Origin: a virus
DNA length: 37,706 nucleotides
Virus record (IMG/VR): IMGVR_UViG_3300042691_015219
Span: 1-37,706 of that record
Direction: 5' to 3' (one strand)
In this document: positions 250-37,121 of the stretch, one piece after another
How the letters are laid out: each line of letters begins with the position of its first letter
How positions within the stretch are numbered: the first letter of the stretch is position 1
The notes under the pieces: model-generated
Database searches by the model: none
Told to the model about the DNA's origin: nothing
What the model saw: the letters and a program-made list of their open reading frames with translations, nothing else
Translations under genes and position numbers: made by a program

Positions 250-272
250 ATTCTATACTAGGGGACTGACAT
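250..272 (-). promoter_or_regulatory. TGTCAG-class promoter for the 37-213 gene
   Basis: Leftward ATGTCAG and TAGAAT are separated by 11 bases, as at the other members of this class. The CRP-like palindrome at 300-315 lies 27 bases upstream. Confidence 0.6.
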
Positions 273-299
273 TTTGGGGGAGGTTAGGGGGTGTGTCTC

Positions 300-315
300 T
301 GTGAGTTACCTCACA
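300..315. promoter_or_regulatory. CRP/GlxR-like palindrome, perfect half-sites
   Basis: TGTGA-N6-TCACA, the textbook consensus for CRP-family regulators (CRP in enterobacteria, GlxR/Crp in actinobacteria). It lies upstream of the leftward promoter at 250-272 and overlaps the stop codon of the 306-413 gene. One of nine such sites in the first 6.6 kb. Confidence 0.6.
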
Positions 316-413
316 CTGTGTAGGGAATCTACACAATTCGGACAAATCGCAATAATGTTGCGCTTAGATACATAGGTGGTCTGACCACATAACTTACAGT
401 TTTTCTTACTCAT
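306..413 (-). CDS. Tiny zinc-ribbon protein, 35 aa
   Basis: Start chosen at ATG 413 because AGAAAGG at 421-427 sits in front of it. A longer reading from 563 would run through the promoter at 448-470. The protein MSKKNCKLCGQTTY...IAICPNC has two CxxC knuckles (C6/C9 and C28/C31), a compact zinc-ribbon pattern. Function unknown; small phage zinc ribbons of this kind usually bind nucleic acid or protein. Confidence 0.65.
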   Translation of the reverse strand: MSKKNCKLCGQTTYVSKRNIIAICPNCVDSLHSVR

Positions 414-447
414 TTTAGAACCTTTCTGTTCATTTCTTATACTGCGT

Positions 448-470
448 ATTCTACACGAGTACCCTGACAA
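448..470 (-). promoter_or_regulatory. TGTCAG-class promoter for the 306-413 gene
   Basis: Leftward -35 TTGACT (471-476), TTGTCAG directly after it, and -10 TAGAAT (448-453) 17 bases from the -35. Here the classical hexamers and the TGTCAG element coexist. A CRP-like site (497-512) lies 26 bases upstream. Confidence 0.65.
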
Positions 471-485
471 AGTCAAATCTAAACA

Positions 486-495
486 CGGCGTGTCG
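486..495 (+). repeat. GGCGTGTCG repeat, copy 1
   Basis: CGGCGTGTCG. Related copies occur at 577-587 (reverse), 860-870, 1205-1214, 2167-2177 (reverse) and 2263-2271, all between genes. With the copy at 577 it forms an inverted pair enclosing two CRP-like sites and two DnaA boxes. Confidence 0.6.
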
Positions 496-496
496 T

Positions 497-512
497 TGTG
501 ATATACACCACA
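497..512. promoter_or_regulatory. CRP/GlxR-like palindrome, one mismatch
   Basis: TGTGA-N6-CCACA lies 26 bases upstream of the leftward promoter at 448-470. The spacing is almost the same as that of the 300-315 site from its promoter (27 bases). Confidence 0.5.
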
Positions 513-516
513 AAAG

Positions 517-537
517 TTATCCACAAAGTTATCCACA
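517..537 (+). promoter_or_regulatory. Tandem pair of DnaA boxes
   Basis: Two perfect TTATCCACA boxes at 517-525 and 529-537, same orientation, 3 bases apart. They sit in the divergent gap between leftward and rightward early genes. A second pair occurs at 2192-2211. This may be part of a replication origin or a site sensing host DnaA. Confidence 0.6.
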
Positions 538-548
538 GGGACGGCCCG

Positions 549-564
549 TGTGATGCACTTCACA
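549..564. promoter_or_regulatory. CRP/GlxR-like palindrome, perfect half-sites
   Basis: TGTGA-N6-TCACA directly after a CGGCCCG motif, 37 bases upstream of the rightward promoter at 602-624. The CGGCCC-palindrome pairing recurs at 5712 and 6594. Confidence 0.6.
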
Positions 565-576
565 AAAATAGTTCTA

Positions 577-587
577 CGACACGCCCG
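577..587 (-). repeat. GGCGTGTCG repeat, copy 2 (reverse)
   Basis: CGACACGCCCG, the reverse complement of the motif at 486 and 860, just upstream of the 602-624 promoter. Confidence 0.55.
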
Positions 588-601
588 AAAAACACCCTAA
601 T

Positions 602-624
602 TTGTCAGTGGTCTATGTTAGGAT
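602..624 (+). promoter_or_regulatory. TGTCAG-class promoter for the 658-804 gene
   Basis: TTGTCAG followed by TGT-TAGGAT with the class spacing of 11. There is no good -35 hexamer upstream (CCTAAT), which suggests the TGTCAG element itself contributes to recognition. Confidence 0.6.
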
Positions 625-657
625 ACTAGTATCAAGATAAAGAAAGGAAGTAATCAA

Positions 658-804
658 ATGGATACTTTCAACAGAATACTAAAAGAGCAACAAGAAAAAA
701 GAATTGCTCAATCAGAAAAAGATAAGAGAGTTATTGAGGCTATGTTCTCAAATAATAATCGTAATCTAAATAATAGTTATCTACTAAATAAAATAGATAA
801 ATAA
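658..804 (+). CDS. Small charged helical protein, 48 aa
   Basis: Starts at ATG 658 after AAAGGAAG; ends TAA 802-804. The product (MDTFNRILKEQQEKR..., ends LLNKIDK) is rich in K, E, Q and N and looks like a single charged helix with an Asn-rich tail. First rightward gene after the divergent control region. No family recognised. Confidence 0.6.
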   Translation: MDTFNRILKEQQEKRIAQSEKDKRVIEAMFSNNNRNLNNSYLLNKIDK

Positions 805-859
805 TTTTTGTTGGTGTGTTGATCTTGACATACCGCAAAAATTAGTCGGCCCCCGCACT

Positions 860-870
860 CGGGCGTGTCG
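860..870 (+). repeat. GGCGTGTCG repeat, copy 3
   Basis: CGGGCGTGTCG, 13 bases before the CRP-like site at 883. Confidence 0.55.
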
Positions 871-882
871 CTTTAAGTTGCG

Positions 883-898
883 TGTGATAATCCTCACA
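883..898. promoter_or_regulatory. CRP/GlxR-like palindrome, perfect half-sites
   Basis: TGTGA-N6-TCACA, 47 bases upstream of the promoter at 946-968. Between them lies TGTCCGTTTTATCC, a motif seen again near 6620. Confidence 0.6.
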
Positions 899-945
899 AA
901 AATAATTTTCAAAATGTCCGTTTTATCCGCATTTTAAATTTGAAA

Positions 946-968
946 ATGTCAGTCCCCTCTGCTAGAAT
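946..968 (+). promoter_or_regulatory. TGTCAG-class promoter for the 1004-1204 gene
   Basis: -35 TTGAAA at 940-945, ATGTCAG starting at 946, extended -10 TGC-TAGAAT at 963-968 (17 bases from the -35). Confidence 0.7.
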
Positions 969-1003
969 ACTCGTATTAGATAAAAAGAAAGGTGGTCAAT
1001 AAA

Positions 1004-1204
1004 ATGACTAACACTAAAAAACAATATGACATAGTAGAATTTCTAGATGAAAAAGGAATTTCCACTCAGGATAATATCTGCGTGTTTTGCTCAATTCGCA
1101 TGGATAGGTGGGATAGCATCTGCCGAAATTGTAAAGAATACAAAGGTGTCATGAATATCGTTGATGCCGTTGAATACTATGGTGAGGAAATCATAGGCTA
1201 CTAA
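1004..1204 (+). CDS. Small zinc-ribbon protein, 66 aa
   Basis: ATG 1004 is preferred over a GTG at 992 because AAAGGTGG (about 987-994) lies correctly before it. Two CxxC knuckles (CVFC and CRNC) lie in the middle of the protein, about 15 residues apart, with an acidic N-terminus (VEFLDEKG) and a helical C-terminus. This is a short zinc ribbon of unknown function, driven by the promoter at 946-968. Confidence 0.7.
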   Translation: MTNTKKQYDIVEFLDEKGISTQDNICVFCSIRMDRWDSICRNCKEYKGVMNIVDAVEYYGEEIIGY

Positions 1205-1214
1205 CGGCGTGTCG
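1205..1214 (+). repeat. GGCGTGTCG repeat, copy 4
   Basis: CGGCGTGTCG begins one base after the stop of the 1004 gene and runs into the next promoter (TTGACA at 1216-1221, AATAAT 17 bases later). Confidence 0.5.
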
Positions 1215-1215
1215 T

Positions 1216-1244
1216 TTTGACAATTCCCCAAAAATATGAAATAA
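1216..1244 (+). promoter_or_regulatory. Sigma-70-type promoter before 1270
   Basis: TTGACA, 17 bases, AATAAT. Lacks the TGTCAG element. It would drive the overlapping gene chain 1270-2112. Confidence 0.5.
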
Positions 1245-1269
1245 TTGTTTTATCAAGAAAGGAAAACTA

Positions 1270-1470
1270 ATGAAAGAATACTCTATCGCTGACCTGCTAA
1301 TCGGTCAGACTTACTACCCTCGCTCAATGGCGAGAAAATACCAATATGGTGAAATTAACTTCGCTGAAAAGCGTGAGGATATTTATTTCTCAGATGAACG
1401 CTATCAGGCGTTTGCTATCCGTTTCAATGGTAGCCGTTGGGCTACTGTCGCAGTAAAGGTTGGTGAGTAA
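1270..1470 (+). CDS. Hypothetical small protein, 66 aa
   Basis: ATG 1270 follows AGAAAGGAAAA. The protein begins MKEYSIADLLIGQTYYPRSM and ends TVAVKVGE, with many aromatic and charged residues; it is probably a small mixed fold. It overlaps the next gene by TAATG, so the two are translationally coupled. Family not recognised. Confidence 0.65.
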   Translation: MKEYSIADLLIGQTYYPRSMARKYQYGEINFAEKREDIYFSDERYQAFAIRFNGSRWATVAVKVGE

Positions 1471-1586
1471 TGAAACTTCATGAATATCAAGAAATGATAA
1501 AGGCGCAACGCAAAGCGCAAGAATTGACAAACTTAGAGAAAATCGCTAAAATTGTAGAAACAACAAACACGAAAGGTAATAACTAA
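1470..1586 (+). CDS. Tiny helical protein, 38 aa
   Basis: Starts in the TAATG overlap at 1470 and ends TAA 1584-1586, directly abutting the next ATG. The sequence (MKLHEYQEMIKAQRKAQELT...) reads as one amphipathic, coiled-coil-like helix. No function assignable. Existence is supported by overlap on one side and abutment on the other. Confidence 0.55.
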   Translation: MKLHEYQEMIKAQRKAQELTNLEKIAKIVETTNTKGNN

Positions 1587-1844
1587 ATGACTACATATAC
1601 AGACTACCCATTCACCGCTAACGGCGTGAATTTTATTTCAAGAATCCATTCTGATTCTCCTAATGTTTTTTATATCTCTCGCCTGCCTGAAGGTGTATTT
1701 ACTCAACTAAATATTGACGCAGTAACAGATTTATTGGGTGACGCTTCACTATTTACCCGTGAAGAATTGTTGGAAGAATTAGAGCGTGTCAATGAAGGTG
1801 GCACTCACTCATTCATTCTACTAGCAGATGAGGTGGCTAACTAA
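1587..1844 (+). CDS. Hypothetical protein, 85 aa
   Basis: ATG 1587 lies after GAAAGG, and the stop overlaps the next start (TAATG at 1842-1846). An N-terminal beta-rich half (YPFTANGVNFISRI) is followed by an acidic helix (TREELLEELERVNEGG). No motif recognised. Part of the 1270-2112 operon-like chain. Confidence 0.65.
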   Translation: MTTYTDYPFTANGVNFISRIHSDSPNVFYISRLPEGVFTQLNIDAVTDLLGDASLFTREELLEELERVNEGGTHSFILLADEVAN

Positions 1845-2035
1845 TGATGACACGAAAAGACTATGTTGAAACCGCTAACATTCTCAAAGGATTTAGCGGA
1901 GAAATTCACCCTCAAGTTTTTGAGGATATGGTAGAAGAATTCGCTCAATTCTTTCTTGCTGATAACGATAGATTTGACAAAGCACGATTTGAGAAAGCGT
2001 GTGGCATTGATGAGTTAGGATTGATTCCAGCATGA
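1844..2035 (+). CDS. Conserved-type small phage protein, 63 aa (TRKDYVETA family)
   Basis: ATG 1844 (or the next codon, ATG 1847). The sequence (TRKDYVETANILKG..., DNDRFDKARFEKACG) resembles a small helical protein I recall from many phages, with an N-terminal RKDYV helix and a C-terminal D-N-x-R-F-D-x-x-R-F block. Its function is unknown to me. It overlaps its neighbours on both sides. Confidence 0.7.
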   Translation: MMTRKDYVETANILKGFSGEIHPQVFEDMVEEFAQFFLADNDRFDKARFEKACGIDELGLIPA

Positions 2036-2112
2036 TAGTTTTACAAACAATTGGATTGATAATGATGTGCGTTGGAATTGGTTTTAGTGTTGCTTATCTA
2101 ATTCTAAATTGA
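2032..2112 (+). CDS. Single-span membrane peptide, 26 aa
   Basis: ATGA overlap with the previous stop; ends TGA 2110-2112. The whole peptide (MIVLQTIGLIMMCVGIGFSV...) is one hydrophobic segment. Coupled translation and composition argue that it is real. A similar membrane micropeptide occurs at 4468. Possible roles, all inferred, include membrane-protein modulation or superinfection control. Confidence 0.5.
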   Translation: MIVLQTIGLIMMCVGIGFSVAYLILN

Positions 2113-2120
2113 TCTAAAAT

Positions 2121-2165
2121 AATTGGTTGAAACTTTGACTAAATTGGTTGAGGTTTCAACTAATT
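2121..2165 (+). terminator. Hairpin after the 1270-2112 gene chain
   Basis: GTTGAAAC at 2126-2133 pairs with GTTTCAAC at 2153-2160, flanked by AATT/AATT. It starts 9 bases after the last stop of the chain. There is no T-run, so it may be an mRNA 3'-end stabiliser rather than a terminator. Confidence 0.45.
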
Positions 2166-2166
2166 C

Positions 2167-2177
2167 CGACACGCCCG
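2167..2177 (-). repeat. GGCGTGTCG repeat, copy 5 (reverse)
   Basis: CGACACGCCCG, followed by GGGGCGGCCCC and then the second DnaA-box pair. Confidence 0.55.
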
Positions 2178-2191
2178 AACGGGGCGGCCCC

Positions 2192-2211
2192 TTATCCACA
2201 GGTTATCCACA
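2192..2211 (+). promoter_or_regulatory. Second tandem pair of DnaA boxes
   Basis: Perfect TTATCCACA at 2192-2200 and 2203-2211, 2 bases apart. Flanked by the GGCGTGTCG repeat and two CRP-like sites, so it repeats the arrangement around 486-587. Confidence 0.6.
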
Positions 2212-2212
2212 A

Positions 2213-2228
2213 TGTGAATTACGTTACA
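2213..2228. promoter_or_regulatory. CRP/GlxR-like palindrome, one mismatch
   Basis: TGTGA-N6-TTACA, immediately after the DnaA boxes. Confidence 0.45.
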
Positions 2229-2240
2229 ATTACGGGATTT

Positions 2241-2256
2241 TGTGAAATTCCCCACA
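2241..2256. promoter_or_regulatory. CRP/GlxR-like palindrome, one mismatch
   Basis: TGTGA-N6-CCACA, 19 bases before the -35 of the 2276-2304 promoter. Confidence 0.45.
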
Positions 2257-2262
2257 TTTTTT

Positions 2263-2271
2263 GGGCGTGTC
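2263..2271 (+). repeat. GGCGTGTCG repeat, copy 6
   Basis: GGGCGTGTC, just upstream of the -35 at 2276. Confidence 0.45.
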
Positions 2272-2275
2272 TAAA

Positions 2276-2304
2276 TTGAAAATGTCAGTGAAAAATGATA
2301 GGCT
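2276..2304 (+). promoter_or_regulatory. TGTCAG-class promoter for the 2334 gene
   Basis: -35 TTGAAA (2276-2281), ATGTCAG starting at 2282, extended -10 TGA-TAGGCT (2299-2304), 17 bases from the -35. Confidence 0.6.
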
Positions 2305-2333
2305 TACGGAGTAACAAAATGAAAGGACATAAA

Positions 2334-2507
2334 ATGAAAGACAAAAAAGAAATACTTGATGACCTTATTGCTTACGCAAAATCTAGAGGTTATAACGAAT
2401 ACGCATACGCTTTTGGAGTTATCTCCACTTACCTCACAGAGGAAAATTTGAAAGACCTAGAAAAATATTTAGGTTATTGGCGCATTGAGGACAGCAAGGC
2501 GGTTTGA
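2334..2507 (+). CDS. Hypothetical helical protein, 57 aa
   Basis: ATG 2334 is chosen because GAAAGG lies just before it; an upstream ATG at 2295 would overlap the -10 box. The sequence (MKDKKEILDDLIAYAKSRGY..., LTEENLKDLEKYLGYW) predicts two or three amphipathic helices. Monocistronic, with the next promoter starting inside its 3' end. No family recognised. Confidence 0.65.
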   Translation: MKDKKEILDDLIAYAKSRGYNEYAYAFGVISTYLTEENLKDLEKYLGYWRIEDSKAV

Positions 2508-2532
2508 TTTTGTCAGACCACTATGCTAGGAT
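2504..2532 (+). promoter_or_regulatory. TGTCAG-class promoter for the 2559 gene
   Basis: -35 TTGATT (2504-2509, inside the preceding stop region), TTGTCAG starting at 2510, extended -10 TGC-TAGGAT (2527-2532), 17 bases from the -35. Confidence 0.7.
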
Positions 2533-2558
2533 TTATTTATCAAGAAAGGAAATAAAAA

Positions 2559-2768
2559 ATGGATAAATTGGAATATGCTCTACGCACTATCGCTAATTGC
2601 GATTTGTGTAATGGACTAGGTTATCAGGGTTGGGCTAATGGCGAAGACTTTGATGTTGAGGATTGCGTTTGTAATCCTTATGGACTAATCCTTGAAGAAG
2701 GAGAAGTTATTTGGGATAATGGCTTACTAAGTGAGCCAGAATTATTTTTGACACAGGAGGCTAACTAA
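2559..2768 (+). CDS. Small protein with DnaJ-like CxxCxGxG knuckle, 69 aa
   Basis: ATG 2559 after AGAAAGG. CDLCNGLGYQGW (from C14) matches the CxxCxGxG zinc-binding repeat of DnaJ-type proteins, and CVC near residue 37 could complete the site. The C-terminal half is acidic (LEEGEVIW). Likely a zinc-binding adaptor, exact role unknown. Followed after one base by the next gene. Confidence 0.7.
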   Translation: MDKLEYALRTIANCDLCNGLGYQGWANGEDFDVEDCVCNPYGLILEEGEVIWDNGLLSEPELFLTQEAN

Positions 2769-2769
2769 T

Positions 2770-3051
2770 ATGGGAAGCACTTTCGCACACGACCTTGCTT
2801 TATTTGATGACATGGCTATTGAGCAACAGATTAGAATTCACTTGTCTGCTAATCATTACCCACCCGTTCCGCCTATCATGGTTCAACCTTGTGTTGAAGC
2901 CATAGATGCCGTAAATGATTTAGGACTATGGAACGCAGAGATTCCGCTACCTGAAGGGGTATCGTGGAAAGGTTTGACAACCGCACCAGCACACGCTATT
3001 ATTGAACAACACCACCTTGATGCGTGGATTATTGAAAGAGAGGAATACTAA
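2770..3051 (+). CDS. Conserved-type small phage protein, 93 aa (YPPVPPIMV family)
   Basis: ATG 2770 has a strong AGGAGG at about 2756-2761. The protein carries YPPVPPIMVQPCVEAID in the middle and PEGVSWKG...APAHAI..HHLDAWI near the C-terminus, a pattern I recall from hypothetical proteins of actinobacterial phages. Its function is unknown to me. The next gene starts 2 bases after its stop. Confidence 0.7.
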   Translation: MGSTFAHDLALFDDMAIEQQIRIHLSANHYPPVPPIMVQPCVEAIDAVNDLGLWNAEIPLPEGVSWKGLTTAPAHAIIEQHHLDAWIIEREEY

Positions 3052-3052
3052 G

Positions 3053-3262
3053 ATGGAATATATGTATGTAATAACTACTTACTATGACGGAGAGTTATAC
3101 AATACTCACCGAATTGCTGACTTTACTGATGCCGCCCGTGTTTGGGAATTGTGTAAAGATAGTGGCAACGCTAAAGAATACGCAACCTATAATCTCACAG
3201 ACCCAACAGGAAAAATGTATACAAAAAATTTCTATGTTGATGGCAAAGTAACTATAAAATAG
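3053..3262 (+). CDS. Hypothetical protein, 69 aa
   Basis: ATG 3053 is preferred over in-frame ATG 3002, which lies inside the preceding gene; AGAGAGG is about 11 bases upstream. The N-terminus is beta-rich (MEYMYVITTYYDGELYNTH), followed by a helix (TDAARVWELCKDSG) and a second strand pair. Looks like a small alpha/beta domain. No recognised family. Confidence 0.6.
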   Translation: MEYMYVITTYYDGELYNTHRIADFTDAARVWELCKDSGNAKEYATYNLTDPTGKMYTKNFYVDGKVTIK

Positions 3263-3270
3263 AGGCTATA

Positions 3271-3483
3271 ATGCTAACTATGGATTATCGTTTAGTAGAT
3301 GTTCTCAACGCAGACCAATTAGAAGTTGGAGATCTAATTGGTTTGAATGATGAAATTGTAAAACTAATTGAAATTGCGCCAGCGAGATTTGGTTTTGTCG
3401 TCACCTATGAAAATGAATTTGGTGAAAAAGAAATTGTAGACATAACTGATGATGAGCAATTTGAATTATTTATTTTAGAATAA
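3271..3483 (+). CDS. Small beta-barrel-like hypothetical, 70 aa
   Basis: ATG 3271 (AGAGG upstream; ATG 3280 is an alternative). The sequence (YRLVDVLNADQLEVGDLIGL..., VVTYENEFGEKEIVDI) suggests an SH3-like barrel as seen in many small phage proteins; that is inference. Ends just before a GC hairpin. Confidence 0.65.
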   Translation: MLTMDYRLVDVLNADQLEVGDLIGLNDEIVKLIEIAPARFGFVVTYENEFGEKEIVDITDDEQFELFILE

Positions 3484-3488
3484 AAATT

Positions 3489-3501
3489 CCCCGTTGCGGG
3501 G
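3489..3501 (+). terminator. GC hairpin after the 2559-3483 operon
   Basis: CCCCG-TTG-CGGGG lies 6 bases after the stop, followed by CGGCCCGCCCG. There is no T-tract, so termination is plausible but not proven. Confidence 0.45.
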
Positions 3502-3542
3502 CGGCCCGCCCGAAATGTCCGATTTGTTACGAACCTCCTGAT

Positions 3543-3571
3543 TTGCTTCCCAAATATTTTTATGATAAGAT
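3543..3571 (+). promoter_or_regulatory. Promoter giving a leaderless mRNA for 3578
   Basis: TTGCTT, 17 bases, TAAGAT; the hexamer ends 6 bases before the ATG, placing the predicted transcription start on the A of ATG. Confidence 0.65.
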
Positions 3572-3577
3572 TATTTT

Positions 3578-3706
3578 ATGTATAAAAAAACTAAGGAAGA
3601 TTTAAGGCGTTTAATGGAATTACGCAGATCTAATGCTGCTCGCCCATTACGCAATAAGAAAAAATATTCCCGAAAAGTTAAGCATAAGAAATTGACTTTT
3701 GCTTAG
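3578..3706 (+). CDS. Small, strongly basic protein, 42 aa
   Basis: ATG 3578, TAG 3704-3706, no ribosome site but a -10 box 6 bases upstream (leaderless). The protein (MYKKTKEDLRRLMELRRSNA..., KKYSRKVKHKK) is packed with Lys and Arg, so a nucleic-acid or ribosome-binding role is likely. The tail is very basic. No named family. Confidence 0.65.
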   Translation: MYKKTKEDLRRLMELRRSNAARPLRNKKKYSRKVKHKKLTFA

Positions 3707-3719
3707 ATTTTTGTTATTA
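3691..3719 (+). promoter_or_regulatory. Promoter for the GP88-like gene
   Basis: TTGACT (overlapping the end of the 3578 gene), 17 bases, TATTAT. AGAAAGGG follows about 8 bases later, so this transcript has a short leader with a ribosome site. Confidence 0.6.
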
Positions 3720-3739
3720 TTAAGTCAGAAAGGGACCCT

Positions 3740-4459
3740 ATGAAATTAAAAAGAAGCAATGACCGCAAGGTAGCAAATGCAGTTTCTCCTAATGGTAAAA
3801 CTCCTACTATTGCAAATACTTTTGGCCTACCCGCTGGAAAAGATTTCTCATGCCCTAGCCAAACACCTACGTGCGCTAGCGTGTGTTATGCAGGGAAATT
3901 AGAAAAGATTTACAAAGGTGTTAGAGATACACTAATACACAATTGGAATTTATTAAAAGACGCAGACCATGATACTATGGAAAATCTATTGCAAGAAATG
4001 ATAGATGATTTCAAAAAAGATTGTGAGAAGAGAGACGCTCAAAAGTTATTTCGTATCCACTGGGACGGAGATTTCTTTAGCGATGAGTACGCATTCGTAT
4101 GGAAGCATATAGTGCTAAATAATCCTGATATTCAATTTTGGGTTTATACTCGTGTACCCTCCGCCGCCAATATTCTCAAGGGTATTGAAAACTTATCTCT
4201 CTATTTTAGTACTGATAAAGATAACAAAGAGATTGCTATTAGTCTTAATAAAGAAAAGGGTATTCGTTTAGCATACCTTGCAGATACCTTCGCAATTGGC
4301 CAGGAAGATATGAAAGCAATGATTGGCAAGCCTGGAGCCAAATGCCCTGAAAATAAAAAGGCTATTCCCCTAATTGACAAAGAGGGTAGTGCTTGTGTAA
4401 AATGTTCCTTGTGTGTCTATGAAAAGGCAGACATAGTCTTTAGTGCTAAGAAAAGGTAA
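3740..4459 (+). CDS. GP88-like cysteine-cluster protein, 239 aa
   Basis: ATG 3740 after AGAAAGGG. N-terminal residues C38, C45 and C49 (CPSQTPTCASVCYAGK) and a C-terminal group C202, C219, C222, C225 (CPENKKAIP..., CVKCSLC) flank a core containing HWDGDFFSDEY and a YTRVPS strand. This arrangement matches what I recall of the phage Gene product 88 family. The cysteines suggest one or two metal or Fe-S centres; HWDGDFF could be catalytic. The biochemical function is not established. Full length for the family, single-gene transcription unit. Confidence 0.65.
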   Translation: MKLKRSNDRKVANAVSPNGKTPTIANTFGLPAGKDFSCPSQTPTCASVCYAGKLEKIYKGVRDTLIHNWNLLKDADHDTMENLLQEMIDDFKKDCEKRDAQKLFRIHWDGDFFSDEYAFVWKHIVLNNPDIQFWVYTRVPSAANILKGIENLSLYFSTDKDNKEIAISLNKEKGIRLAYLADTFAIGQEDMKAMIGKPGAKCPENKKAIPLIDKEGSACVKCSLCVYEKADIVFSAKKR

Positions 4460-4467
4460 GGGGTAGC

Positions 4468-4536
4468 ATGGACTTATTCATAATTAGTTTAGTAGTCTTT
4501 ATCCTGCTCATGGCAGGCATGGGGCATAGAAAGTGA
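4468..4536 (+). CDS. Single-span membrane peptide, 22 aa
   Basis: ATG 4468 after AAGGGG, TGA 4534-4536, 8 bases after the GP88-like gene. The peptide MDLFIISLVVFILLMAGMG ends HRK: one membrane segment with a positive end. Short, so tentative; the good ribosome site supports it. Confidence 0.45.
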   Translation: MDLFIISLVVFILLMAGMGHRK

Positions 4537-4547
4537 TTTATCTCACA
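4532..4547. promoter_or_regulatory. CRP/GlxR-like palindrome, one mismatch
   Basis: AGTGA-N6-TCACA, overlapping the 22-aa ORF stop and 34 bases upstream of the TTGACA at 4582. Confidence 0.45.
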
Positions 4548-4581
4548 AATCTCAAATAATGAGATTTTTAGGGAAATGGAC

Positions 4582-4610
4582 TTGACAAAGCAAAAAATAA
4601 ATGAAATAAT
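4582..4610 (+). promoter_or_regulatory. Sigma-70-type promoter for 4656
   Basis: TTGACA, 17 bases, AATAAT. An AAAGGAG ribosome site lies about 30 bases downstream. Confidence 0.55.
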
Positions 4611-4655
4611 AAATACCATAAGCAGTAAAAACCAACTAACAAAGGAGAAAGAAAA

Positions 4656-4826
4656 ATGGCAGTAAATACAGCACTATACAAGGTAGGCGACACTTACACC
4701 TCACAAAAGACAAAGGTGACAGGTGTTATCAAGGAAATCGTGCCACAGGCAAATGGAAATGTCCGTGTTCGTCTTGATGTAGAAGGTCAGACACGCTGGA
4801 CAATGTGGACACCTAAAGCCAACTAA
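4656..4826 (+). CDS. Small beta protein, 56 aa, paralogue of 5435
   Basis: ATG 4656 after AAAGGAG. The sequence aligns with the 55-aa product at 5435: both have Y-x-VGD-x-x-T-(S/T)-x-K-x-x-VTG-x-I, then VPQ...N and R-V-x-L. The barrel-like pattern (KVGDTYTSQKTKVTGVIKEI) resembles short SH3/KOW-type folds. Function unknown. Followed by a 3'-end hairpin (4849-4872). Confidence 0.65.
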   Translation: MAVNTALYKVGDTYTSQKTKVTGVIKEIVPQANGNVRVRLDVEGQTRWTMWTPKAN

Positions 4827-4848
4827 TTAGCAAATGCTAACCTGACCT

Positions 4849-4872
4849 GAGCAAGTCAAGGCTAAACTGCTC
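4849..4872 (+). ncRNA. 3'-end hairpin family, copy 1 (divergent)
   Basis: GAGCA pairs with TGCTC around a 14-base loop ending in TAAAC. It lies 22 bases after the stop of the 4656 gene. Less regular than the copies at 5377, 5665, 6542, 7743 and 12837. Confidence 0.5.
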
Positions 4873-4875
4873 AAT

Positions 4876-4904
4876 TTGATTTCTTTACTAGAAAATGCTA
4901 GTAT
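4876..4904 (+). promoter_or_regulatory. Promoter for 4945
   Basis: TTGATT, 17 bases, extended -10 TGC-TAGTAT. Does not carry TGTCAG. Confidence 0.6.
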
Positions 4905-4944
4905 AGGATAACCCCAAAACACCAAACAGAAAGGCAAGAAAGAA

Positions 4945-5367
4945 ATGGCAAGACAAAAGGCTATTAGCGTGAAAATCGCTACAACTAAAGTCATCAAGGC
5001 TTTAGAAACTAAGTTAGCACAAATCAAGAAAGATAAGGCTAACCAAACAATCAACGAGGAAAAGTTCAACAAGGCTCACGAAAAGTGGCTCAAAGATGTT
5101 GCTAAACTTGCTCTCGCTCAAATCTCTAAGGCAGAAAATCTACGGGCTAATGTTCGCTACAACGGCTCTATAAATGTTGATTTTGATTTGCCTAAATCAT
5201 CAGTAGTAGATTTTCCTGCTGAACCTACTAAAGACTTTGACACTTACCATGAGTGGCAATACAAGGAAATGGTAGAAGAAATTGAGAACGCAATTCGTAT
5301 TCTCAAGATGACAGATGAGGAAGTCGTAAGCACCTCCACTTACAACGCTATCGCAAGATACTTGTAA
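4945..5367 (+). CDS. Lys-rich coiled-coil hypothetical, 140 aa
   Basis: ATG 4945 after AAGAAAG. Residues about 1-70 are Lys/Ala-rich helices (KALETKLAQIKKDKANQT), the middle is beta-rich (NVRYNGSINVDFDLP) and the C-terminal half is acidic and helical (EMVEEIENAIRILKM). The charge split suggests a nucleic-acid or protein-binding scaffold, by inference. No family name recognised. Followed by a 3'-end hairpin at 5377. Confidence 0.65.
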   Translation: MARQKAISVKIATTKVIKALETKLAQIKKDKANQTINEEKFNKAHEKWLKDVAKLALAQISKAENLRANVRYNGSINVDFDLPKSSVVDFPAEPTKDFDTYHEWQYKEMVEEIENAIRILKMTDEEVVSTSTYNAIARYL

Positions 5368-5376
5368 AATTACTTT

Positions 5377-5400
5377 CCTGAGCATGAAATAAAACTGCTC
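5377..5400 (+). ncRNA. 3'-end hairpin family, copy 2
   Basis: CCT-GAGCA, an 11-base loop containing ATGA and AAAAC, then TGCTC; 9 bases after the stop of 4945-5367. Confidence 0.6.
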
Positions 5401-5434
5401 ACAACAAAACCCCAAAAACAGAAAGGTAAAACAA

Positions 5435-5602
5435 ATGACATTAGGCGGATACACTTATCAAGTAGGAGATTTATTTACTACTTCTAAAACAGGTGTTACA
5501 GGACGAATTGAAAAGTTTGTTCCACAAAGCAAAAATGTAACTCGTGTAATGCTTCGCTTGGCAAATGGTCAGCAACGATTTGCTATGGTAAAGACTTACT
5601 AA
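5435..5602 (+). CDS. Small beta protein, 55 aa, paralogue of 4656
   Basis: ATG 5435 after AGAAAGG. Shares the VGD-x-(Y/F)-T-(S/T) block, the K-x-x-VTG-x-I strand and the VPQ turn with the 4656 product, which indicates a duplication inside this early block. Probably a small barrel; function unknown. A complex inverted repeat follows its stop. Confidence 0.65.
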   Translation: MTLGGYTYQVGDLFTTSKTGVTGRIEKFVPQSKNVTRVMLRLANGQQRFAMVKTY

Positions 5603-5609
5603 CAAAATT

Positions 5610-5658
5610 GTTTCTCTGAGTTCAAGGCAGATCTATCTGCGAAAGTCCCCTGAGAAAC
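5610..5658 (+). ncRNA. Structured 3' element with nested stems
   Basis: An outer stem GTTTCTC (5610-5616) with GAGAAAC (5652-5658) encloses an inner stem GCAGAT (5627-5632) with ATCTGC (5635-5640). It begins 8 bases after the 5435 stop. The nested perfect arms are unlikely by chance. No known RNA family recognised; it may be a processing site or small RNA. Confidence 0.5.
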
Positions 5659-5664
5659 CTTCAT

Positions 5665-5688
5665 CCTGAGCATGATGTAAAACTGCTC
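5665..5688 (+). ncRNA. 3'-end hairpin family, copy 3
   Basis: CCT-GAGCA, an 11-base loop (TGATGTAAAAC), then TGCTC. Directly follows the structured element at 5610-5658. Confidence 0.6.
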
Positions 5689-5711
5689 TATAAAAAAATG
5701 CGGGGCGGCCC

Positions 5712-5727
5712 TGTGATTTTTATCACA
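5712..5727. promoter_or_regulatory. CRP/GlxR-like palindrome, perfect half-sites
   Basis: TGTGA-N6-TCACA directly after GGGGCGGCCC, 19 bases upstream of the -35 at 5747. Confidence 0.6.
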
Positions 5728-5746
5728 AAAAACCTTAAGACAGGAT

Positions 5747-5775
5747 TTGTATTTTCCCCTAATCTCTGCTAGACT
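5747..5775 (+). promoter_or_regulatory. Promoter for 5806
   Basis: TTGTAT, 17 bases, extended -10 TGC-TAGACT. Confidence 0.55.
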
Positions 5776-5805
5776 TAAGATACACCAAAAGAAAGGAAAG
5801 CCCTA

Positions 5806-6084
5806 ATGATATCAACCGCATTAGCAATACAAAACGCAACCGCAGAGGCAGTTCATGATGAAGAAGTTATGGATATGGCTTCTTCTTTGTATTATCATAG
5901 AAGCGATATGACTGGAGAAGAGTTTGCGAAAGCACTCTTTAGATATTCCGCTCACTTGTCAGCGATGACTGCTACTTTAGTTACTCATGCCTGCTTGACA
6001 GAAAGTCAGATAGGCGATATGCTGGAAGCAATAAAAGAAATGGATGCCCTAGGAAAGGACATAACAAATGGAAACAACAACTAA
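5806..6084 (+). CDS. Helical hypothetical, 92 aa
   Basis: ATG 5806 after AGAAAGGAAAG. The protein is alpha-helical and Ala/Met-rich (MISTALAIQNATAEAVHDEE..., FRYSAHLSAMTATLVTHACL) and ends in an Asn run. It overlaps the next gene by 17 bases, so the pair is coupled. No family recognised. Confidence 0.65.
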   Translation: MISTALAIQNATAEAVHDEEVMDMASSLYYHRSDMTGEEFAKALFRYSAHLSAMTATLVTHACLTESQIGDMLEAIKEMDALGKDITNGNNN

Positions 6085-6514
6085 TGAAATCGTAGTGCCT
6101 GAACACTACAATGCTAACCAACTCGTAACATATAAAGTTATTGAAGATGGAGTAGCAACCTATCCCACAACAAAAGTCAATGACCTAGAATATACACTAG
6201 ACCGTGGTCGTTATTGGACTAAGCAATGGAATGACCTATCAGGTAAGGTTGCTAGGTTAGAGAATGACCTAGAACAATATCTTGATATGGATTCAGAAGA
6301 TATTGTTTCTGCTATCTGTGAAATTTTTGGATTCAATCCTACCAAGGAAATTGAATTTGAAGCAACAGCAACAATTACTGGACGTGTATTAGTTGCACTT
6401 TCAGACCTTGCAAGTTTCGACATTGATGACATGGACCTAACTGTTTATGCAGATTCACATTCACATGAAGTTGAAGTGGATGTAGAAGTTGACCATATTT
6501 CACGTGTTGATTAA
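6068..6514 (+). CDS. Hypothetical protein, 148 aa
   Basis: ATG 6068 lies inside the end of the preceding gene, with GGAAAGGAC 7-8 bases before it. A central helix (KVARLENDLEQYLDMDSEDI) leads into an acidic beta-rich C-terminal half (EFEATATITGRVLVALSDLA, then VEVDVEVDHISRV). Coiled coil plus beta domain is the best description; no named family. Followed by 3'-end hairpin copy 4. Confidence 0.7.
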   Translation: METTTNEIVVPEHYNANQLVTYKVIEDGVATYPTTKVNDLEYTLDRGRYWTKQWNDLSGKVARLENDLEQYLDMDSEDIVSAICEIFGFNPTKEIEFEATATITGRVLVALSDLASFDIDDMDLTVYADSHSHEVEVDVEVDHISRVD

Positions 6515-6541
6515 TTTCTGATAGGGGGCTATCCGAAAAAA

Positions 6542-6565
6542 CCTGAGCATGTTTTAAAACTGCTC
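6542..6565 (+). ncRNA. 3'-end hairpin family, copy 4
   Basis: CCT-GAGCA, loop TGTTTTAAAAC, then TGCTC; 27 bases after the 6068-6514 stop. Confidence 0.6.
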
Positions 6566-6593
6566 CTCAAATTCCCCGCTGCGAGACGGCCCG

Positions 6594-6609
6594 TGTGATC
6601 TTTCTCACA
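6594..6609. promoter_or_regulatory. CRP/GlxR-like palindrome, perfect half-sites
   Basis: TGTGA-N6-TCACA right after CGGCCCG, 42 bases before the -35 of the DUF932 gene promoter. Confidence 0.6.
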
Positions 6610-6651: not shown

Positions 6652-6680
6652 TTGACTTTGTCAGCCCTGTCTGCTAAGAT
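6652..6680 (+). promoter_or_regulatory. TGTCAG-class promoter for the DUF932 gene
   Basis: -35 TTGACT (6652-6657), TTGTCAG starting at 6658, extended -10 TGC-TAAGAT (6675-6680). Best combined match of the class. Confidence 0.7.
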
Positions 6681-6713: not shown

Positions 6714-7730
6714 ATGGCACATGAACTAGAAACGCAAAATGGCGTTGCTTCATTCGCATCATTCCGTGAGCCTGCTTGGCATGGTCTAGGCACAGTATTC
6801 ACAGAAGAAAAAAATACAGCAGAAATGCTGTCTGCTGCTAATCTAAATAACTGGAATGTTAGATTAGAAGAATTACAGATTCCATCTACACTTACATCAG
6901 ATAAATCTTATCAATATGTAGTGCGTGATAATCCTACTAATAAATCCCAGACAGATGTTTTGGGAATTGTTGGTGAGCGTTATGTACCCGTTCAAAATGA
7001 AGAGTTATTTGCTTTTGGCGATAACATTCTAGATGGTGGTGGCAGATGGGAAACCGCTGGTTCCATTCGTGGTGGGCGTGTAGTGTTTGGCTCTCTTGCT
7101 CTTGAGCGTGAGACAGTGCTAGACCCTACGGGTGTCGCAGATAAGGTAAAGACTTATCTTCTCATCAACACATCACATGATGGCTCTATCGCTATTCAAG
7201 CAAGCATTACACCTGTTCGTGTTGTGTGCGCTAACACTCTAAATCTTGCGCTAGGCTCTAAGCGTGGCAAGAATGCTATCAAGCAATCTTTCAAGATTCG
7301 TCATACTCAGACAGCAGAAGGTAAAATTGCTGTTGCTCGTGAGACTCTTGGTCTTGCTAATAAATACATGGATGCTTTCGATGTTATGGCACACGCCATG
7401 ATTCAGAAAGAAATCACTGCTGGTCAATTCAACGACATTATTCTTGCTGCTTATCCTAAGCCTGAGAAAGATGCTAAGGGCGCAATCAAGAAGTGGGAAA
7501 ATAAAGTTGATGTTATCAACGATATTTATACAGGACAGTATAACGGCATGATTGCTAATACTGCTTGGGGTGCTTTCAATGCGCTTACTGAGCGTTTAGA
7601 TTGGTATCGTTCTGCTCGTGGTGGTTCTAACGAATCTCTACTTGCTGCTGCTTCTGGTTTTGATGCGACAATCACCGCAGAAAAAAATCGTTTGCTAAGT
7701 ATTGTAAAAAATACTTTAGAATTGGTATAA
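6714..7730 (+). CDS. DUF932 family protein, 338 aa
   Basis: ATG 6714 (AGAAAGG upstream). The start MAHELETQNGVASFASFREP followed by AWHGLGTVF is typical of the DUF932 / phage-plasmid-like protein family common in phages and plasmids of actinobacteria and proteobacteria. Other family-like segments are GERYVPVQNEELFAFGD near residue 85, LLINTSHDGSIAIQASITPVRVVCANTL near 150-180, and a helical C-terminus. The length is normal. The family's biochemical role is not settled; early expression and abundance in phages suggest a DNA-associated or takeover role. Single-gene unit with its own promoter and a 3' hairpin. Confidence 0.85.
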   Translation: MAHELETQNGVASFASFREPAWHGLGTVFTEEKNTAEMLSAANLNNWNVRLEELQIPSTLTSDKSYQYVVRDNPTNKSQTDVLGIVGERYVPVQNEELFAFGDNILDGGGRWETAGSIRGGRVVFGSLALERETVLDPTGVADKVKTYLLINTSHDGSIAIQASITPVRVVCANTLNLALGSKRGKNAIKQSFKIRHTQTAEGKIAVARETLGLANKYMDAFDVMAHAMIQKEITAGQFNDIILAAYPKPEKDAKGAIKKWENKVDVINDIYTGQYNGMIANTAWGAFNALTERLDWYRSARGGSNESLLAAASGFDATITAEKNRLLSIVKNTLELV

Positions 7731-27261: not shown

Positions 27262-27543
27262 TTACTCCATAGTTAGTGCTTGCCAAGTATAAGACCAATC
27301 TTTTTTAGTCTTATGATTATTAAATTCTTTAGAGACTTCTCCACCTTCTAAATAGATACCGCCCCAAACGCCCCACTCTTTTCCAGATACGCCGACAGCA
27401 AAACATTGCTTGGCTACTGGACATGTTCTACACAGAGCGTCTACAAACTCTCTAGTTTGAGGTTGCTCTTCATATACATCAAAAAATATATTTGTATCAG
27501 AACCTAGGCATTCAGCATTATCTTTCCATAAATGCTGCTTCAT
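27262..27543 (-). CDS. whiB: WhiB-family iron-sulfur transcription regulator, 93 aa
   Basis: ATG 27543 with AGGGG. Cysteines C12, C38, C41 and C47 have the WhiB order (C, then CxxCxxxxxC) for a [4Fe-4S] cluster, and WGVWGG (57-62) is the family turn that touches sigma factor region 4. Basic C-terminus for DNA contact (NNHKTKKDW). WhiB proteins are nearly confined to actinobacteria and their phages. It may redirect host sigma-A promoters. Located 3 bases from both neighbours. Confidence 0.9.
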   Translation of the reverse strand: MKQHLWKDNAECLGSDTNIFFDVYEEQPQTREFVDALCRTCPVAKQCFAVGVSGKEWGVWGGIYLEGGEVSKEFNNHKTKKDWSYTWQALTME

Positions 27544-31518: not shown

Positions 31519-31794
31519 TTATGCAGATTGCATTGTCAATCTAGTATGTGTACGAATCCTGTGACAATTTGCACAAACAACTTCACACTTTTGTATTTCA
31601 CGCAATATTGCCTTCCAAGAAAATCCATCGTGTATCATTCTTGATACGTTATATTTTTTGTCTCTAATATGGTCAAAATCTAAAACTATATGGTTATTTT
31701 CTCCGCAGTCTACGCATCCACTTGCTGTTTTTATTTCAGCAAGTCTCTTCTTAAACTGCTGCTTATTATAATGTGCTAGTTCTTTTTCAGTCAT
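31519..31794 (-). CDS. HNH endonuclease, 91 aa
   Basis: Start ATG 31794 (MTEKELAHYNKQQFKKRLAE) preferred; ATGs at 31806 and 31836 are in frame but lie in the promoter/RNA region. CVDCG, then LDFDHI and CEVVCANCHRIRTHTR give the CxxC...H...CxxCH layout of HNH_5-like enzymes. It probably cuts DNA as a free-standing homing endonuclease or packaging-linked nuclease. It lies just downstream of the structured RNA at 31826-31906, an association worth noting. Confidence 0.75.
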   Translation of the reverse strand: MTEKELAHYNKQQFKKRLAEIKTASGCVDCGENNHIVLDFDHIRDKKYNVSRMIHDGFSWKAILREIQKCEVVCANCHRIRTHTRLTMQSA

Positions 31795-33416: not shown

Positions 33417-34838
33417 TTATCTTAATATTTTATAGTTATATGTTTTTTCCCAATTTAAAATATCATCATTATCATTTAAAAGTGGCTGACCTTTTATATT
33501 TAAACTAGTATTAAGTAATATTGGAACACCAGTAAGTTCGTACCATTTTAACAAGACCTCATACAATCCTGGATGCTGTTCTTTATTTACTGTTTGCACT
33601 CTTGATGTGCCATCTGCGTGAACAACAGACGGTATCAAGTCTGGCTTTTTACATTTAACTGCATATTGCATATATGGACTAATAAAATTCATATCGAACC
33701 ATTCACTAGCCTTTTCTTCAAGGATAACTGGAGCAAATGGCCTAAACATTTCTCTTTTTTTAATAAGATTTACCTTATCTTTAATATTAGGATCTCTTGG
33801 ATCTGCAAGAATAGATCTATTACCTAAAGCCCTTGGGCCATATTCTGCTTTTCCTGTTGCCACTGCTGCTATTTTATCTCTAATCAAACTATTAATAATT
33901 TGAGTTACTGGATATTCCCCGCCTAAATCATATCCAAGATATGGATGTTGCCAGTTTATATGGCTTCTATAGGCCGCAGCAGCCGCACCAAGAGACGATC
34001 CAGAATCGCCTGGATTAGGCATTATCCATACATCATCGAACATTCTCCAAAGCATTGTGTTGGCTGCACAGTTCAAAGCACATCCGCCCATAAAAACAAG
34101 GTTTCGTTTTCCTGTAAGTTTTTGAGCCATAGCCATAAAATTAACTAGTCTATCTTCATAAACTTTTTGTACGGCAGCAGCAATATCAAATTGTTCTCTA
34201 TGCCCAACATGCTCTCCCCAATCAATTACTCCTCTGTGAAAATTATATTTTTGTGTATTAATATCTGGAAAATATTCTTTTACTTTGTTATAATATCTTG
34301 TCCAGTCCCCGTAGGCTGCCATGCCCATAAAAATATATTCTTCTTCATTTGGTTTTAATCCTACTAGTTGTGTAAAAGCAGAATAAAATAAACCAAAACT
34401 AAAAGGATAGTTCTTTTTATATACCTGCTTTATTTTTGAACCTTCACCAGTCCATATACTTGAGGTATTGTATTCTCCAATTGAATCTAATACCACTATA
34501 ACTGCGTCATTAAATTTACTTGTGTAATACCCTGCTGATGCATGAGAGTAGTGATGTTTAAAATATTTAATAGGTATATTTGGTGGAAAGTTTGGCTTCC
34601 AGTCAGCCACTCCGCCTTTTGTTAAAAGCCTTAGCCTTTTAAGTTGTGGCTTTTCATAATAAGCAATAAGATCTGGATTGCCAAACTTAAAACAATCATC
34701 CCATAGGTTTTGTGTGTTATACCAACTATTCTTTATTTTACTATATCTTTCAGCATGAGCAGCAAATATAATTTCATTATTACTCAATATTGATATAGAA
34801 GCATCATGCGAGGTTTCGTTAACACCAAATATTAACAT
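33417..34838 (-). CDS. O-carbamoyltransferase (NodU/CmcH/TobZ family), 473 aa
   Basis: ATG 34838. N-terminal ASKHA-type strand LIFGVNETSHDASISIL, HHYSHASAGYYTS (H95, H96, H99), GGCALNCAAN near 255-264, then G-x-AEYGPRALGNRSILADPR, KREMFRPFAPVIL and LLNTSLNIKGQPL. These are the metal and carbamoyl-phosphate/ATP sites of the family, which transfers carbamoyl groups onto sugar hydroxyls. Somewhat shorter than typical 550-600 aa members, with the C-terminal end abbreviated. Likely decorates a glycan made by the phage or host. Confidence 0.85.
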   Translation of the reverse strand: MLIFGVNETSHDASISILSNNEIIFAAHAERYSKIKNSWYNTQNLWDDCFKFGNPDLIAYYEKPQLKRLRLLTKGGVADWKPNFPPNIPIKYFKHHYSHASAGYYTSKFNDAVIVVLDSIGEYNTSSIWTGEGSKIKQVYKKNYPFSFGLFYSAFTQLVGLKPNEEEYIFMGMAAYGDWTRYYNKVKEYFPDINTQKYNFHRGVIDWGEHVGHREQFDIAAAVQKVYEDRLVNFMAMAQKLTGKRNLVFMGGCALNCAANTMLWRMFDDVWIMPNPGDSGSSLGAAAAAYRSHINWQHPYLGYDLGGEYPVTQIINSLIRDKIAAVATGKAEYGPRALGNRSILADPRDPNIKDKVNLIKKREMFRPFAPVILEEKASEWFDMNFISPYMQYAVKCKKPDLIPSVVHADGTSRVQTVNKEQHPGLYEVLLKWYELTGVPILLNTSLNIKGQPLLNDNDDILNWEKTYNYKILR

Positions 34839-36744: not shown

Positions 36745-36816
36745 AGCCTTTGGTCAGGATTGAACTGACGACTTTCCGCTTACAAGGCGGATACTCTACC
36801 ACTGAGTTACAAAGGC
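36745..36816 (-). tRNA. tRNA-Thr (anticodon TGT)
   Basis: Acceptor GCCTTTG/CAAAGGC, anticodon arm CCGC-CTTGTAA-GCGG with TGT, T-arm GTCAG-TTCAATC-CTGAC. No CCA is encoded. Last tRNA of the array in transcription order. Confidence 0.85.
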
Positions 36817-36820
36817 GCAG

Positions 36821-36891
36821 AGCGGATAGCGAGAATCGAACTCGCACATTAACCTTGGCAAGGTTACGCACTACCACTATGCAATATCCGC
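36821..36891 (-). tRNA. tRNA-Gly (anticodon GCC)
   Basis: Acceptor GCGGATA/TATCCGC, anticodon loop TTGCCAA between TAACC and GGTTA, T-arm GCGAG-TTCGATT-CTCGC, discriminator U. Four bases from tRNA-Thr. Confidence 0.85.
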
Positions 36892-36893
36892 AG

Positions 36894-36967
36894 TAGAGCA
36901 GGTAGGACTTGAACCTACGATAACCGAATTATGAGTTCGGGGCCTTAACCAACTTGGCTACTGCTCC
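36894..36967 (-). tRNA. tRNA with CAT anticodon (Met, or Ile2 if lysidine-modified)
   Basis: Anticodon loop CTCATAA between CCGAA and TTCGG, T-arm GTAGG-TTCAAGT-CCTAC, acceptor GGAGCAG/CTGCTCT with G1-U72, discriminator A. The CAT anticodon alone cannot separate elongator Met from Ile2. Confidence 0.75.
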
Positions 36968-36970
36968 ATG

Positions 36971-37044
36971 CGATCCTGAACAGACTTGAACTGTCGACCT
37001 CCACCGTGACAGGGTGGCGTTCTAACCAACTGAACTACAGGACC
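36971..37044 (-). tRNA. tRNA-Asp (anticodon GTC)
   Basis: Acceptor GGTCCTG/CAGGATC, loop CTGTCAC between CCACC and GGTGG, discriminator G as expected for Asp. Three bases from the Met/Ile2 tRNA. Confidence 0.85.
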
Positions 37045-37048
37045 TACG

Positions 37049-37121
37049 CTGGTCTGGTAGGATTCGAACCTACGACCTAGGCATTAACAGTGCCCCGTTC
37101 TGCCAACTGAACTACAGACCA
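37049..37121 (-). tRNA. tRNA-Asn (anticodon GTT)
   Basis: Acceptor TGGTCTG/CAGACCA, loop CTGTTAA, T-arm GTAGG-TTCGAAT-CCTAC, discriminator G. First tRNA in transcription order, 7 bases downstream of the protease stop; the CCA tail is not encoded. Confidence 0.85.

Follow-up and report, generated by a model that had tools for sequence, protein, structure and literature searches.

Which protein, if any, reads the copies of the palindrome TGTGA-N6-TCACA that crowd the start of the IMG/VR virus record IMGVR_UViG_3300042691_015219, and to what effect? The stretch analysed here (the window) is the whole 37.7-kb record, with 35% G+C. Nine copies are found in its first 6.6 kb, five perfect and four with one mismatch, all at the coordinates and of the quality given to them in an earlier sequence-only reading (Table 1). 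The palindrome conforms to the two-fold consensus of sites bound by regulators of the CRP/GlxR family. As that reading had suggested, the sites lie upstream of phage promoters and most probably recruit a host regulator; judging from sequence analysis, host CRP is likely to be recruited as a class I-like activator of these promoters, a proposal supported by the phasing of sites and promoters and by the CRP orthologue that the candidate host family encodes.

Sites in the window and in related viruses

When the first 6.7 kb was simulated 300 times with a first-order (dinucleotide) Markov model, sites with no more than one mismatch averaged 0.22 and never exceeded 2, and perfect sites averaged 0.003. 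At two mismatches the whole window holds 20 sites where 19.3 are expected; this lack of excess shows that the signal is confined to the near-perfect sites. Reading from the sequence, all of the sites are intergenic apart from 4532, which shares bases with the end of a small open reading frame (ORF). The motif CGGCCC, said to precede three sites, is indeed present before 549, 5712 and 6594, abutting the site or one base away from it.

Relatives of the window were gathered as 159 viral loci from scans with the DUF932 and GP88 proteins, together with five from the site pattern, giving 164 loci and 2.7 Mb; the scan with the CGGCCC-site pattern brought in at least one seemingly unrelated contig (L165). 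There are 661 copies of the exact palindrome in these loci, counting overlapping loci, compared to no more than 33 for each of 29 palindromes with permuted arms. Conservation in related phages, which the earlier reading had proposed to look for, thus extends to over 150 viral loci. In 14 relatives of 50-123 kb the exact sites are nearly all gathered within a single stretch a few kb long, with one stray in one genome (G010), and around 85% of exact sites fall outside predicted ORFs even though ORFs make up 62% of the stretch.

The inner consensus, taken from 330 non-redundant exact sites, is TGTGA-[T/G]-N-T-A-N-[A/C]-TCACA, and the phage consensus matches the published CRP consensus, TGTGAnnnnnnTCACA (PMC4005916). 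No excess of Watson-Crick pairing is seen at the inner positions of these 330 sites. Single changes in one arm are frequent at both outer and inner ends (TGTGG 147, TGTGT 99, AGTGA 79), and symmetric double changes are rare; changes on one side only, with no inner pairing, are to be expected of a protein site, not of an RNA stem.

Spacing of sites and promoters

The phage promoters resemble those of sigma70, TTGACT-N17-TAgAAT, and have a conserved TGTCAG inside the spacer; across 197 non-redundant promoters this hexamer keeps its place just past the -35 and 10 bp upstream of the -10, and it could be a promoter element specific to the phage or to a sigma factor. In the window the promoters belonging to sites 300 and 497 point leftward and the others rightward. 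The distance (d) between the centre of a site and the first base of the -10 has peaks at 41.5, 52.5, 62.5 and 73 bp, each a turn of DNA from the next; the series becomes around -53.5, -64.5, -74.5 and -85 if the -10 starts at -12. The phage-derived centres fall within 1-3 bp of the classical class I distance series of Escherichia coli. When the downstream genes were grouped into 56 unrelated families, with one vote per family and distance, the Rayleigh test for a 10.5-bp period gave p ~ 3e-8, and for the 197 non-redundant TGTCAG promoters, with 90 sites, it gave R = 0.75 at the same period and p ~ 8e-23; these p-values assume independent promoters, and the certainty they convey is somewhat overstated. 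Other 5-bp palindromes before the same 197 promoters, used as a control, were unphased (R = 0.01). A broader test over 36-100 bp is diluted by background and has its best periods at 11-11.5, and the cleaner sets are preferred. An apparent peak at 24.5-25.5 bp proved to be a scoring artefact in which the right arm resembles the -35 hexamer. Furthermore, a scan of the whole viral collection for site and promoter only, with no family gene, gave peaks at 41.5, 52.5 and 62.5 bp among the matches listed.

The sites keep clear of the core promoter. Of those belonging to the 197 promoters, 90 lie 36-80 bp upstream of the -10 and 113 at 36-150 bp upstream, and the interval that runs from 36 bp upstream to 30 bp downstream of the -10 start has none. 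A class II-type placement, with the centre near -41.5 and overlapping the -35, was not seen at any of these promoters; the placement is of class I type, upstream of the -35 without overlap and with spacings one helical turn apart. Seven of the nine window sites are near the peaks (50.5, 50.5, 51.5, 52.5, 62.5, 72.5 and 73.5).

From this arrangement a mechanism can be proposed. The palindromes would be operators for a host CRP/GlxR-family protein, which would bind upstream of the sigma70-type phage promoters, on the face of the helix that CRP occupies in class I activation. Bound CRP would then activate rather than repress, helping to recruit RNA polymerase through a contact that presumably involves the C-terminal domain of its alpha subunit (alpha-CTD). 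The promoters concerned are probably early ones, as suggested by the orthologous DUF932 gene, which lies near the genome end of Samistivirus phages.

The spacing-matched matches listed by the collection-wide scan also include phages of around 44-46% G+C related to OX376640 and OX376641. These two accessions are LanE43-AprE7 and LanE43-AprF5 (E7 and F5), the first phages to be cultured on 'Ca. Planktophila' (PMC10202952). Each carries two perfect sites where 0-0.05 are expected, and F5 site 22761 has TAGAGT 41.5 bp downstream of it, with a weak -35 as read from the sequence. Relatives of E7 and F5 contain 41 distinct exact sites, where permuted palindromes reach 11 at the most, and the seven site-promoter pairs found are without exception spaced at 41.5 or 51.5-52.5 bp. 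The sites and their spacing thus suggest that the arrangement is common to two apparently unrelated phage families.

The candidate host, its CRP and other explanations

WhiB is restricted to actinobacteria (PMC6802176) and is found in 13 of 15 phage records, namely the window and 12 of 14 relatives. The sole match in the genome collection was a 4.7-kb phage contig (L170) binned in an actinobacterial metagenome-assembled genome (MAG), G015, whose family is taken as the candidate host family. From genome size and G+C content we infer that this family is Nanopelagicaceae; the host of the window phage itself presumably lies within it. Most of its genomes are about 1.0-1.6 Mb, and one that was examined has 40% G+C. 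A CRP-family protein (PF00027) is present in 63 of 81 genomes of the family, and one is probably available in the infected cell; a host lacking any such protein, which the sequence-only reading would have counted against its proposal, is thus unlikely. The recognition helix of twelve translated candidate-host CRPs, LVGASRETVNKALADFA, is that of M. tuberculosis CRP (E = 7e-78). No phage-encoded CRP was detected in 14-15 phage records, as judged from the PF00027 cyclic nucleoside monophosphate (cNMP)-binding domain and the PF13545 Crp-type helix-turn-helix (HTH), for both of which controls matched.

It had also been suggested that the phage couples its early genes to the cyclic AMP (cAMP) state of the host. 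This is doubtful and finds no support: class III adenylate cyclase (PF00211) was not detected in twelve CRP-encoding candidate-host genomes (G017, G025, G032, G034, G044, G046, G056, G067, G077, G083, G089 and G095) or in 15 phage records, other cyclase classes not having been searched. Since cAMP only mildly enhances DNA binding by M. tuberculosis CRP (PMC4005916), action of CRP without cAMP is plausible.

Several observations weigh against recruitment of host CRP. Two of the window sites, 4532 (d = 65.5) and 2213 (d = 78.5), are out of phase. The -35 boxes of site-bearing promoters are not weaker than those of site-free ones, as would be expected if they depended on an activator; the trend is in fact opposite, possibly owing to false promoters in the comparison set. 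The MAG that links the phage family to the host family, G015, has no detected CRP, and the phage contig in it may be mis-binned. Finally, the twelve CRP-encoding genomes have no perfect site, compared to 3 matches to a reversed control pattern; in six of the twelve, one-mismatch sites are about as numerous as their control (79 vs 81); and in a 1.16-Mb genome the matches to a position weight matrix (PWM) of the site are fewer than a second-order model predicts, 10 vs 33 at 10 bits and 1 vs 13 at 12 bits. With chromosomal consensus sites absent or depleted, a host regulon that uses the phage consensus is not visible. As the candidate-host genomes have no perfect site, phage DNA may hold the strongest CRP sites in the cell. 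A wider scenario is conceivable, though we would not expect it to hold in full: streamlined freshwater actinobacteria would possess a cAMP-free CRP and a chromosome purged of strong sites, the early region of the phage would carry the strongest CRP-controlled promoters, and unrelated phage lineages would have converged on the host regulator as their early activator.

Binding of CRP could also have the opposite outcome. CRP is able to repress, and one cluster of M. tuberculosis CRP sites lies at +1 to +20 (PMC4117774); host CRP might in the same way silence phage promoters until conditions suit, or support a dormant state. The sites described here are not so placed, none lying over the core promoter compared to 113 at 36-150 bp upstream, in positions that are class I-like and phased, and repression is unlikely. 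Slightly less probable again is that the palindromes are read by a phage-encoded regulator instead of host CRP. One could be encoded among the many small phage genes that are without a known function, and the consensus is missing from candidate-host chromosomes, but neither a cNMP-binding nor a Crp-type HTH domain was seen in the phage records, an unrelated phage family has the same consensus and spacing, and the central T-A preference is CRP-like.

Titration of the host regulator, another role put forward in the sequence-only reading, would have decoy sites draw CRP off the chromosome. Multiplying phage DNA with several strong sites per genome would be suited to this, as would the lack of perfect sites in 12 candidate-host genomes; titration, however, requires no fixed promoter distance and leaves the helical phasing unexplained, and as the main role of the sites it is very improbable. 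The palindromes could in principle fold as RNA, with a 5-bp stem and a 6-nt loop within spacers, and serve as attenuators, terminators or processing sites. Their inner pairs do not covary, their arms change on one side with symmetric doubles rare, and they are phased to promoters and lie upstream of the predicted transcription starts, so this hairpin alternative is rejected with hardly any probability left to it. Chance or compositional artefact, which would fit the lack of a two-mismatch excess in the whole window, fares no better against nine sites where 0.22 are expected and 661 in relatives where permuted palindromes reach at most 33.

Neighbouring elements and known systems

The features of the region are collected in Table 1. 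The possible tenth site, at 31560, may be functional or may be due to chance. Perfect DnaA boxes, AGTTATCCACAGG, share spacers with CRP sites as tandem pairs 11-12 bp apart. They are present in 153 of 160 loci (related loci L005-L163), in 580 copies compared to 20-34 for control 9-mers, and possibly mark an origin of phage replication or provide a second hook for a host regulator. The top enriched 8-mer near CRP sites is GGCGTGTC(G) (390 vs 28), which is often fixed just upstream of the -35, its centre 30 bp upstream of the -10, or 37 in reverse orientation; it is also present in E7/F5-like phages. An ATGTCCG(T/A)TTT-like element is repeated at 915, 6619, 3516 and 7819; in most cases a -10 box begins 36-54 bp further downstream, and the element often follows a CRP site immediately. 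CGGCCC, at 542, 847, 2185, 3502, 5706 and 6587, often closes a GC-rich stretch after a gene and is possibly a terminator end. Elsewhere in the window five tRNA genes are clustered at 36745-37121 on the minus strand, and a carbamoyltransferase gene (PF02543/PF16861), 33417-34838, lies beside uncharacterised genes.

Table 1. Features of the window, with d the distance in bp from site centre to the first base of the -10
Feature	Coordinates	Strand	Match	Promoter or remark
CRP/GlxR-type site TGTGAGTTACCTCACA	300..315		perfect	leftward promoter, -10 at 255-250, d = 52.5
Leftward promoter TGTCAG-N10-TAGAAT	250..275	-		poor -35 (CCCAAA)
CRP-type site TGTGATATACACCACA	497..512		1 mismatch	leftward promoter, -10 at 453-448, d = 51.5
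Leftward promoter TTGACT-N17(TTGTCAG...)-TAGAAT	448..476	-		
Tandem pair of perfect DnaA boxes TTATCCACA	517..537 (517, 529)	+		between two CRP sites
CRP-type site TGTGATGCACTTCACA	549..564		perfect	rightward promoter, -10 at 619, d = 62.5
Rightward promoter TGTCAG-N10-TAGGAT	603..624	+		poor -35
CRP-type site TGTGATAATCCTCACA	883..898		perfect	promoter with -10 at 963, d = 72.5
Promoter TTGAAA-N17(TGTCAG)-TAGAAT	940..968	+		
Tandem pair of perfect DnaA boxes	2192..2211 (2192, 2203)	+		directly upstream of site 2213
CRP-type site TGTGAATTACGTTACA	2213..2228		1 mismatch	-10 at 2299, d = 78.5; weakest of nine by PWM
CRP-type site TGTGAAATTCCCCACA	2241..2256		1 mismatch	-10 at 2299, d = 50.5
Promoter TTGAAA-N17(TGTCAG)-TAGGCT	2276..2304	+		
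GP88 family protein (PF17338) gene	3740..4459	+		second anchor gene
CRP-type site AGTGATTTATCTCACA	4532..4547		1 mismatch	putative promoter TTGACA-N17-AATAAT, -10 at 4605, d = 65.5, out of phase
CRP-type site TGTGATTTTTATCACA	5712..5727		perfect	TTGTAT-N17-TAGACT, -10 at 5770, d = 50.5, read by eye
CRP-type site TGTGATCTTTCTCACA	6594..6609		perfect	upstream of DUF932 gene, -10 at 6675, d = 73.5
DUF932-gene promoter TTGACT-N17(TTGTCAG)-TAAGAT	6652..6680	+		
DUF932 protein (PF06067) gene	6714..7730	+		downstream of site 6594; anchor for finding relatives
WhiB domain (PF02467)	27355..27528	-		marks actinobacterial host
Possible tenth site TGTGACAATTTGCACA	31560..31575		1 mismatch	leftward TTGACA-N17-TATACT, -10 at 31516-31511, d = 51.5
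GGCGTGTC(G)	487, 862, 1206, 2264	+		
GGCGTGTC(G)	578, 2168	-		
TGTCAG	603, 947, 2283, 2511, 6659	+		
TGTCAG	266, 464	-		

No report of CRP-site arrays in actinophages was found in the open-licence literature, and the arrangement can be set beside several known systems. The stoperators of cluster A mycobacteriophages are likewise short repeated sites in the spacers of small-gene regions; they are asymmetric and bound by a phage-encoded repressor, whereas the sites described here are symmetric and promoter-phased. A shared ancestry of the trait with the Samistivirus phages of Streptomyces was considered and is unsupported, Bmoc having 0 exact sites in 132,885 bp. With class I CRP promoters of E. 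coli the likeness lies in the consensus (PMC4005916), the upstream site and the one-turn periodicity of distance; here, however, the sites are on a phage genome and repeated over many promoters, which have the extra TGTCAG and GGCGTGTC elements and whose dependence on cAMP is doubtful. The Rv3676 regulon of M. tuberculosis and the GlxR regulon of C. glutamicum are closer as regards the protein, the candidate host encoding an orthologue with the same recognition helix as M. tuberculosis CRP, whose sites cluster at -60 to -40 with one top site at -62.5 (PMC4117774). In M. tuberculosis, however, 191 chromosomal sites were located by chromatin immunoprecipitation, whereas the candidate-host chromosomes have no perfect site and no class III cyclase was found. 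LexA in GIL01 is also a global host regulator that reads phage promoters (PMC4551915), but it is a host repressor of a temperate phage, whereas here CRP would putatively activate, and at many promoters at once.

The proposed recruitment of host CRP would provide a concrete mechanism by which phages of very abundant freshwater bacteria take over transcription, and it suggests that unrelated phage families may share one conserved host regulator as their point of entry. A further question it prompts is the role of CRP in cells where neither a class III adenylate cyclase nor consensus sites on the chromosome seem to be present. Since E7, F5 and their host are in culture, the mechanism is directly testable.

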